64,000 nucleotides of DNA from Norana najaformis (Eukaryota; Annelida; Clitellata; Crassiclitellata; Hormogastridae), in NCBI GenBank assembly GCA_964023275.1, contig OZ029914.1, forward strand, positions 12,444,341 to 12,508,340, read 5' to 3'. The position numbers were made by a program, and so were the translations under genes. This document shows positions 31,218 through 58,616 of this stretch, piece by piece. Numbering within the stretch: position 1 is the first letter of the stretch; each line of letters starts with the position of its first letter. The notes under the pieces were generated by a model that made no database searches, was not told the origin of the DNA, and saw nothing but the letters and a program-made list of their open reading frames with translations.

Positions 31218-34200
31218 TTACCATCACCCAACTGAGTCTTGACATTGCTGTGGCGCATGTGATGGCGTATGCTCTGATACTTCTGACCATTAGCCTAATA
31301 CTGAACGTCTTCCAGAAATATGGTAAGTTTGTAAAAGTTCCTAACGTTTAATGAAACGATACCAATTTTAAGTTCATATAAGCCTGCGTGTTTTCATATT
31401 ATGTAATGCGTTTTAAATTGTAGAGGATGAACTGTTTTCGATAGAACGATGACCAGTTGGCTGAAACACATAGATATAGACCATTGAATCAGTTGTTAGG
31501 ATCACAAACTTTAAATCACATGACATAGCAGAAAGCCACGATCCTTGAGTGTGTGTGAGAATTTTATTTCACACAAATAGGATGGTATGATTTCGAAGAA
31601 TTACGTGACAGAAATTATTTAATTATGTTTAATTGTGGAATTGCAGATGCAGAGTTGAACCTGATCCCTCGCGACACTGAAGTGATGGTTAATGATTTGA
31701 TTTACATGAACTGTTCGACGTCTCTTGAAGCGGAGAAAGTCCAGTGGCGTCATGGCAACAATTATGTTTACGCCGGAAGAAATATACTAGAGCCGTACAA
31801 TGTCAGATTTTCGGTTAAAATTAACTCATCTACAGGAACAAACAATTTAGTTATTCGATCAGTCCAACCTTCAGATGCCGGACAATACGAATGCTTAGAG
31901 GATGAAGGGTTTGGAGAACGAAGTTCGGCTCATCTAATTGTGTTGGGTGTGTTCACATTTTACATCTTTAAAATATTGAAAGTGCTGTATGCTGAGACCC
32001 GATGTCAAGGTGCCAGAACATTCTTATATACATGAACTGTATGCTCCCAAAACTCTATCAGAGCTGCCTACTATCGGATAGTCTTGTCCAGTTATTTCAA
32101 AAGGGACACAGTAGTCTGGTTATAGACTGCAAGTAGAGTTCTGAATTGCTACTTTAATATATGTGGCCATTCTGCTTTTTTGTATTGATAAAATTTTGAC
32201 ATTCTACTAGCTTTAAACGATTCATTTTCAAGTTAACACTCAGAGTAATTCTCTTAAAAGTATTTAAACAGGAAACTTTTTAGCCCACATAGTTTGTTTA
32301 TCAGGTTATTTAATAGGGTAGGGTTTCAAGGGCTTCTTTGACTTTTTTGCAAGCATAAAGTAAGTAACTCAGTTTTGTGTCGAGTGATTATTGCCGGATA
32401 GTCAAGCATCTTTGAGATATTGCAAATCTAATGTGTTTAGACCGCGATCCTGTCTGTTCTAACATGCATCCAAGCGGAGTCATTGGACCAAACAATTGCG
32501 GAGTTGAACCAGAAGAAATCAAACTTTCATGTGTCGTGAAGTACCACGGCTACACTTTTCCAGTTCTTCAATGGAAAGTGGGCGGAATCAATAAATCCAT
32601 TACAGGAGGACTGGTCAACATTACCTCCAATAAGAATGTTGTCACCTACATACTTACGTTGAACAGTACATTCGATCTAAGTCATCCTTCGATTGTTTTC
32701 CAGACGATGAGAGCTGTAAAGAGAAACTACAATTGTTCCTTTGACGTTATCAAAATTTTATGTGAGTACACAGTTTCATCTGCAGTGAAACGGAGGAAGT
32801 GCATCGATGATAATATTAGTTTGTATTGGTTATTTTAATTGTTTTACTGTTGCTTACTTTAGTGTCACGGCCCTGCTTCACTGTGACTTCGTTAGGCACG
32901 ATCGTGACGTATTCACACTCTCACAGAGAAGGGTGTTCTATGATTTATTCACTACAGCTACGGAGATTTATCTGTATTATGAAGAGAGTCTATCTGCCGC
33001 AACATTAACTAGCGTTCAAGGGAAATGAATAGTTCGACAGCGTCAATCTAGAACCGCAGCGTTCAGCTCTGGTGTTGTTAAGCGTCGTCGAGAACGAACC
33101 CGAGCCCAATTCGTCTAGTGCTTTATATCGGTTTCGTTCAGATCTGGCATCGTGTGAAGTCGATCAATTGTTTATTCGACGGCCGCCTTATCGCTCTATA
33201 CAAAGCGTCGTCGTTCTTTTGATTGCGACGGCAGATGGCCTCAGCGATCGTCGCCGAGATCTGACCAGATGGAGATAGTTTCCTTAACGAATGATCGTTA
33301 GTCGTTAGTTCAGGTGGCGAGGTGCAGAGTTTGAGGGGGGGGTCATTTTGATTACCCTTACTGGCTTTCGTCGGGCCTCGCGTCTGCGCTTCCGCGTCTG
33401 TTCAAAGCGAATGTGTCGAGTCTGCGTCTGTCTGATGTCGCCGACTGTGATACTTAGGTAGAAGTGATCCCTCGGGATTAATAGACGAGGTTAGGAGTAG
33501 ACACATATATGGAAAAAAATTTAATTCGTAATCTGTCACATTATAAATGATTAAATTTTACGGATCTAGAAAATGGACTCCCTACTGAAACGGCCCTTTT
33601 ATAAAATTGCGGAAAGCGAAATATGGAGGTCTAAGAATGAAACAAAGGGCTCATTAGCAGATTGTATAACAAAGGTGTGCAGAAAACAGAGAAGTGGCAG
33701 CAAAGTAGCGAACGGAGCCCGATAAACAAGAAAGCAGAGAGAAACCATAGAAAATTTGGTCTGCAAAAGAATAGGACTAACAGACGTTCTAACTAGTTAC
33801 CAAATATCGGTTTTACGCTGATAAAATTCTGGGATGAATCGGAAATACTGCTATGCAAGTTGCAAGGAATCGGCATAGTTATAGATAGGCATACGTTTTA
33901 TGTACATAATGTCATCCGTATTACAAAACCGATTCAATTCTTCTTATTTTGTCCGATTGCCCACAAAAAGGAGTTGGAATTAGTACCGCTCATCGCCAAG
34001 ACTGTCATGACTGATTGATTGGCCATATTTGAAAATATGAATACGGCTTTAAGGCGGACAAAATCTTCTTGCTCATTACTCATGTCTTATCAAATGCACA
34101 TACTCCGATGGATGGTGACAGATAACACGACAAGCAATCATAACATAGCAGAAGTATATAAATGTCTCGACTTGAAAGGTCGGCTAAATTTACTTGATTG

Positions 34201-58616: not shown

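Follow-up and report, generated by a model that had tools for sequence, protein, structure and literature searches.

Introduction

TRIM-NHL proteins are soluble ligases, vertebrate KIR/LILR receptors are encoded in head-to-tail Ig receptor clusters, and the Alr proteins of Hydractinia are clustered Ig-type transmembrane receptors with tyrosine-motif tails, polymorphism, and homophilic binding. To our knowledge, clustered invertebrate Ig receptors signal by tyrosine motifs or have short tails, and we know of no NHL domain in the Alr tails. For Botryllus, PMC12065747 describes FuHC-tm as a protein with three Ig domains, a transmembrane (TM) segment, and a short tail, and the fester co-receptors (FcoR) as type I proteins with several Ig domains, which form a multigene family with 53 loci so far at the fuhc locus. 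According to the same source, some FuHC-tm and FcoR tails are short and others contain ITIM, hemITAM, or tyrosine motifs, and ITAM/ITIM is mentioned for Hydractinia candidates as well (PMC12065747).

We analyzed a 64,000-nucleotide stretch of the Norana najaformis genome (C2:12444341-12508340, here called the window), in which a gene had been predicted to place an NHL propeller behind an Ig ectodomain and a TM helix. The claim that this is not a named family agrees with our search, in which no Ig-TM-NHL family was found in the literature covered by titles and the starts of abstracts, with subscription journals mostly outside that coverage. The term NHL occurs 0 times in the available texts of PMC12065747 and PMC13428168, and the term propeller 0 times in that of PMC12065747.

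Exon structure of the window gene

All of the nine exons described in the original prediction are present on the plus strand, with GT-AG borders and every intron in phase 1. Spliced together, they give 2103 nt, or 701 codons including the stop (700 amino acids). This fit is itself little proof of the chain, because phase-1 introns keep the frame with any subset of exons 6 to 8. Exon 1 (31262..31322) encodes the leader MAYALILLTISLILNVFQKY, and homologous leader exons were found in 5 of 10 further copies of the gene (L017, L019+20, L036, L037, and L038), part of the 10 scanned stretches stopping short of the 5' end. Exon 5 (41821..41916) encodes the TM helix with YYRRK on its cytoplasmic side and ends in a strong donor, GTATGT. 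Both the leader and the single TM helix can be read in the sequence as predicted, and both have homologous exons in paralogs.

The three Ig-like domains that had been proposed are not equally recognizable. Ig1 (exon 2; 31647..31946) is I-set-like and the most conserved domain, and it scores above the Pfam gathering thresholds for Ig_3 (E 6.4e-8), I-set (7.6e-8), Ig_2, and ig. Ig2 (exon 3; 32441..32761) has C2-set/I-set matches below the cut-off in paralogs and none in the window copy, even below the cut-off; in this copy the F-strand cysteine has been lost (ICQT to VFQT, with phenylalanine in its place), while it is kept in all four paralogs read through that stretch. Ig3 (exon 4; 41196..41441), the membrane-proximal beta domain, is Ig-like by residue pattern only: the exon has the cysteine and tryptophan spacing of the Ig type, with no Pfam Ig match, and its AlphaFold2 model (6 sequences) has a pLDDT of 72.8 and gave no Foldseek match at E 0.001. 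Profile searches with Ig2 and Ig3 against the PDB returned no convincing match, the Ig3 list containing antibody light chains at E values of at least 0.6. The claim thus holds for Ig1 and is weaker for Ig2 and Ig3. Taken together, Ig1 in the ectodomain, the leader, and the TM helix with its basic stop-transfer sequence point to membership of the Ig superfamily.

Additional pieces lie in and around these genes. At L019 (2511-2647) an extra Ig2-like piece, decayed and stop-containing, precedes the intact exon. Window positions 4918-5890 contain retrotransposon ORFs that resemble reverse transcriptase, of which 5294-5887 matches RVT_1 (E 4.5e-9). Element copies at 7361-10091 and 46855-49602 are 98.2% identical over 2749 bp and carry a 579-aa ORF, split in the second copy, with a zf-AD match below the cut-off; similar ORFs are also present at 52236-53943. 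Intron 8, which spans 13.4 kb, contains transposon-like ORFs.

The NHL propeller exon

Exon 9 (57745..58616, ending in TAA) is predicted to encode a whole NHL beta-propeller of the TRIM2/3/71 type. It passes PF01436, which matches 16 of 23 family members at E 0.01, and its AlphaFold2 model has a pLDDT of 90.4. The best 26 Foldseek matches of this model comprise TRIM2, Thin, TRIM3, Mei-P26, Brat, TRIM71, NHL-2, and designed Pizza propellers, and the profile matches include Thin (2.7e-30) and TRIM71 (1.6e-27). The one-exon propeller of the original prediction is therefore borne out by the PF01436 match, the confident structure prediction, and the TRIM-NHL matches.

The predicted flexible cytoplasmic tail appears to be free of ITAM/ITIM-type tyrosine motifs. 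Tyrosine is absent from the translations of exons 6 to 8, and the one ITIM-like string, IKYWPI, is part of the propeller, where its tyrosine is not a consensus residue. The net charge of the propellers ranges from -14 to +8, that of the window copy being -4. This spread argues against one conserved RNA-binding surface, without naming a partner, and would fit varied protein partners better than a single RNA-binding face.

A tandem array on C2

We searched the 608-Mb genome (17 contigs) for relatives of these exons. In this genome, 29 matches to the erythrocruorin linker family, a marker of annelids, score above the family cut-off, in agreement with an annelid origin. All 140 candidates for Ig3 were scored, giving 129 matches, 64 of them close (at least 72% identity), with 60 on C2, which make up the Ig3 list used below, 1 on C1, 1 on C11, and 2 on C8. 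For Ig1 we listed 59 places on C2 of at least 150 matches, most with at least 71% identity and one partial place with 69%; the list omits distant matches, the copies on C1 and C8, and, for two places that were split, one of the halves. Scoring 135 of 827 candidates gave at least 135 relatives of the NHL exon, every listed one being on C2, and 130 of these 135 places have no internal stop. Among the listed NHL matches, none accompanies the close copies of Ig exons on C1, C8, and C11. The NHL list for the array consisted of 135 places from this search (136 matches, with two pieces merged) and 12 from a further search, both tallies being lower bounds, and the additional places that a later search gave, which were not added, are all outside C2 10.86-12.98 Mb.

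In this 2-Mb region, the listed places on the plus strand are 48 Ig1, 49 Ig3, and 30 NHL exons. The NHL exons directly follow an Ig3 in 27 of 30 cases, another NHL in 3, and an Ig1 in none, and 25 Ig1-Ig3-NHL triplets were observed, compared to a mean of 4.4 and a maximum of 13 in 5000 shuffles. Read in the other direction, the next element after the 49 Ig3 exons is NHL 27 times, Ig1 19 times with no listed NHL between, and Ig3 3 times. One listed NHL place in the region is on the minus strand. Using the first NHL list (135 places) alone, a listed NHL was found within 40 kb downstream for 33 of the 59 Ig1 places, on the same strand in 33 of 33, with a mean of 16.5 and a maximum of 25 in 1000 strand shuffles. 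A chance chain of exons was rejected by this order and strand. Because 27 of 30 NHL exons directly follow Ig3, the simplest reading is that the Ig ectodomain, TM helix, and NHL propeller form one transcription unit, as had been claimed. The window gene would accordingly be one member of a cluster of about sixty surface Ig receptors, many of them seemingly with a propeller inside the cell.

Some related places have other layouts. At C2 12057863, 12328226, and 12675196, only residues 1-66 of Ig3 match, and an NHL exon lies 1072-1081 bp downstream. No TM exon was found in L018, one of these three short units, which may lack TM segments and are perhaps pseudogenes spread by duplication. More distant Ig1/Ig3 relatives are grouped at C2 0.2-3.7 Mb and C4 28.7-29.1 Mb, and L049 has, in this succession, Ig1 (53%), Ig2 (36%), and two ORFs that resemble Ig3 and a TM segment. 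On C15, cox1-like fragments with several stops at 412 kb and 571 kb are likely mitochondrial insertions in the nuclear genome.

Paralogs and the charged helical exons

Four paralogs (L019+L020, L037, L038, and L039) share the order Ig1-Ig2-Ig3-TM-helical exon-NHL. Their exon borders are conserved except for a GC donor at L038 exon 4, and a recognizable leader is present in three of the four, L039 being the one without. The donor of the TM exon is GTATGT or GTACGT in all 5 copies for which it was scored. Of 8 copies scored for the NHL acceptor, 7 have it in the same register. L017, at C2 18.26 Mb, is an isolated, compact copy and likely a pseudogene, with no Ig2 match, half of Ig3, and an NHL acceptor changed from AG to CT; it nevertheless retains an open NHL exon, which shares 78% identity with that of the window. 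A pattern search found no helical exon between the TM and NHL exons of L017.

Exons 6 (42575..42640), 7 (43411..43491), and 8 (44249..44308) of the window gene encode charged helical segments and are tandem copies of one another, the repeat unit being 82% identical over 952 bp at an offset of 836 bp. They resemble charged mini-exons in the TRIM-type neighbor genes. Their splicing is doubtful, as their donors are weak, with scores of -0.7 to -3.5 compared to at least 4.8 for 29 other donors, which are from the same gene family and made up the scoring matrix (the GC donor of L038 was excluded). An in-frame stop directly follows each of the three exons, and the GTTAAA donor of exon 6 overlaps it. 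Among 16 helical exon ends from Ig-type, TRIM-type, and other genes, compared by eye, an upstream phase-1 GT is kept in 14, the GT chosen in the original prediction in 11, and an in-frame stop just behind in 13. Conservation of this stop is no proof of its use, because the flanking intron is conserved too.

The original prediction was right that the three exons are present and keep the frame; they may nevertheless serve as alternative last exons and not belong to every transcript. It is quite possible, if short of probable, that one gene makes long and short tails, the TM exon being joined either directly to NHL or to a helical last exon that ends in GTG and a stop and leaves the protein NHL-free. 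In that case, two isoforms would have been combined in the nine-exon chain. The weak donors, whose two compared forms are equaled by 43% and 57% of 715 intronic GTs, and the in-frame TAA behind them favor such an arrangement, as do the strong TM donor in phase with the NHL acceptor, the 19 Ig3 exons without a listed NHL before the next Ig1, and L017, pseudogene-like as it is, with no helical exon found. However, the directly following stop is missing in L021, L038, and L027b, and the helical-exon donors of L021 (3.8) and L027b (2.1) score better.

The interval between the TM and NHL exons

An unlikely alternative to one transcription unit is that two genes, one for an Ig-TM receptor whose tail is short and charged and one for a coiled-coil-NHL protein further downstream, have been duplicated as a block, which would yield the same pattern of strand and order. 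A precedent may exist at C2 7.24 Mb (L048+L031), in the same cluster, where a 294-residue coiled-coil-like ORF with no Ig or RING match precedes an NHL exon, so that this propeller is perhaps combined with N-terminal parts of three types. The TM-to-NHL introns of the paralogs are largely colinear in alignment, with few pieces out of order, and in this interval two pairs of ATG ORFs match between L037 and L039, one with 45% identity over 87 residues and one over 18 residues. Substitutions in the 87-residue block are mildly uneven over codon positions (55, 35, and 36), which counts in favor of the alternative, but the block has seven gaps, six of them of a single base, and an intron-like identity of 82%, and it comes from one gene pair. 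We do not find an extra start exon in L037/L039 convincing, although the 87-residue pair keeps a small probability of being one. Moreover, the strong TM donor requires a downstream exon, and an independent start of the window NHL exon was rejected, its first methionine being residue 211 of 290; no early methionine is common to the 24 NHL exons compared.

It is quite improbable that the family is functional and the window copy itself decaying or dead. The lost Ig2 cysteine of this copy, the transposon-like ORFs in its 13.4-kb intron 8, its weak exon 6 to 8 donors, and damaged sister copies such as L017, with NHL acceptor and Ig2 missing, could suggest this; its nine open exons with GT-AG borders and a stop and its confident NHL model speak against it.

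TRIM-type neighbors and the origin of the NHL exons

The same type of propeller also ends TRIM-NHL genes of the cluster, which extends over 10 Mb. At C2 8.56 Mb, an open RING and B-box exon lies 5' of an NHL exon on the same strand, and the three NHL exons read there have phase-1 acceptors too. Within 40 kb, the direct partner on the same strand is an RBCC for 26 of the 135 NHL places and an Ig1 for 27, with 1 more RBCC and 2 more Ig1 when another NHL lies between the NHL and its partner; the nearest partner was on the opposite strand in none. No listed Ig1 or RBCC lies within 40 kb 5' of the remaining 79 places, a tally in which RBCC partners are a lower bound, the RBCC list consisting of C2 places from 150 scored of 490 candidates. 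No RBCC match is listed in C2 10.86-13.2 Mb, and a pattern scan of both strands of the window showed no RING or B-box. The window gene has the C-terminal propeller of a TRIM-NHL gene and not the N-terminal RING and B-box. The receptor layout of the original prediction stands; the NHL domain is not an isolated one, the receptors and TRIM-NHL genes of the cluster sharing one propeller type as judged from their sequences. C8 (0-13 Mb) holds another large group of TRIM exons with RING/B-box, along with two close Ig1/Ig3 copies at 2.94-2.99 Mb.

In a tree of 24 NHL exons, the window copy groups with L017 and L021-L024 (support 100/100), and the remaining Ig-linked and RBCC-linked exons are mostly without resolved grouping. 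Holding 10 Ig-linked rows together (L021 and L022 being counted as Ig-linked by array position only) was not rejected against 3 other or unassigned rows (p 0.452) and was rejected against all 14 other rows (p 0.000226), most of which have no known partner. The tree does not show a single origin of the Ig-linked exons and would accommodate one fusion or several.

Unequal evolution of the domains

Measured over one common set of five genes, pN/pS is 0.29 for Ig1, 0.47 for Ig3, 0.70 for NHL, and 0.81 for Ig2, with a codon bootstrap of 0.56-1.23 for the latter. Larger sets gave median dN/dS values in the same order, 0.22 for Ig1 (n=15), 0.45 for Ig3 (n=6), 0.60 for NHL (n=23), and 0.77 for Ig2 (n=5). 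Gene conversion among paralogs may distort both measures. Within the propeller, pN/pS is higher in loops (0.78) than in strands (0.53). The NHL exons of L037 and L039 differ at 46, 39, and 45 sites over the codon positions, with one 3-base gap in 855 columns, whereas nine gaps of various lengths occur in 693 columns of the preceding intron. The even changes and the single 3-base gap indicate that the NHL frames are kept while the residues change.

Discussion

We consider it probable that the window gene belongs to a tandem array of type I Ig receptors with a TRIM-type NHL propeller as their tail. The colinear order and strand, the exon order of the paralogs, the strong TM donors, and the in-register NHL acceptors speak for a receptor. 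The support for this architecture is good, and its function is an inference. In the proposed mechanism, the TM exon would be spliced to the NHL exon, so that Ig domains lie outside and the propeller inside the cell. The conserved Ig1 and diversifying Ig2 would recognize varied outside ligands, which may be microbial or on the cells of other individuals, and ligand binding would lead to receptor clustering. The clustered propellers, diversified mainly in their loops, could then bind intracellular partners, and would bring clients to, or compete for clients of, neighboring TRIM-NHL ubiquitin ligases. The best reading of the locus would be a surface receptor of the immune type or for self/non-self recognition that works by means of its TRIM-type propeller, an immune role being suggested because of the behavior of the family only.

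The open NHL exons, the TRIM-NHL fold, RBCC partners nearby, and the fast evolution of Ig2 and NHL argue for this explanation. Against it stand the weak donors and stops of exons 6 to 8, the 19 of 49 Ig3 exons without a listed NHL, the minus-strand NHL, the 79 of 135 partnerless NHL places, the Ig copies on C1, C8, and C11 without NHL, the tree, and the lost Ig2 cysteine. A further proposal, which we put forward tentatively and regard as rather unlikely, is a germline repertoire of two-sided receptors, in which Ig2 and the propeller both diversify, matching phase-1 introns allow TRIM ligases and membrane receptors to exchange their propeller exons, each unit couples one outside to one inside client specificity, and NHL-free short-tailed units serve as counterparts.

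If the favored receptor reading is true, a membrane receptor array with TRIM-type propellers links surface recognition to ubiquitin-type effectors and illustrates how receptors of this kind can be assembled in an animal by virtue of exon phase. Annelids would also gain a concrete, testable candidate system for self/non-self recognition.

Among known systems, TRIM2, TRIM3, TRIM71/LIN-41, Brat, Mei-P26, and Thin have the propeller fold and sequence family in common with exon 9, but the N-terminal module of the window gene is an Ig ectodomain with a TM helix. Vertebrate KIR/LILR resemble the array in their head-to-tail arrangement of Ig genes, possibly with long- and short-tailed members in both, but the two differ in having unrelated tail chemistry and independent ectodomains. 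Clustered Ig-type TM receptors are common to Hydractinia Alr and the window family, the Alr tails being of the tyrosine-motif type. Botryllus FuHC-tm and FcoR are likewise Ig-type receptors, whereas the predicted tail of the window gene is a propeller, and its exons 6 to 8 are without tyrosine.
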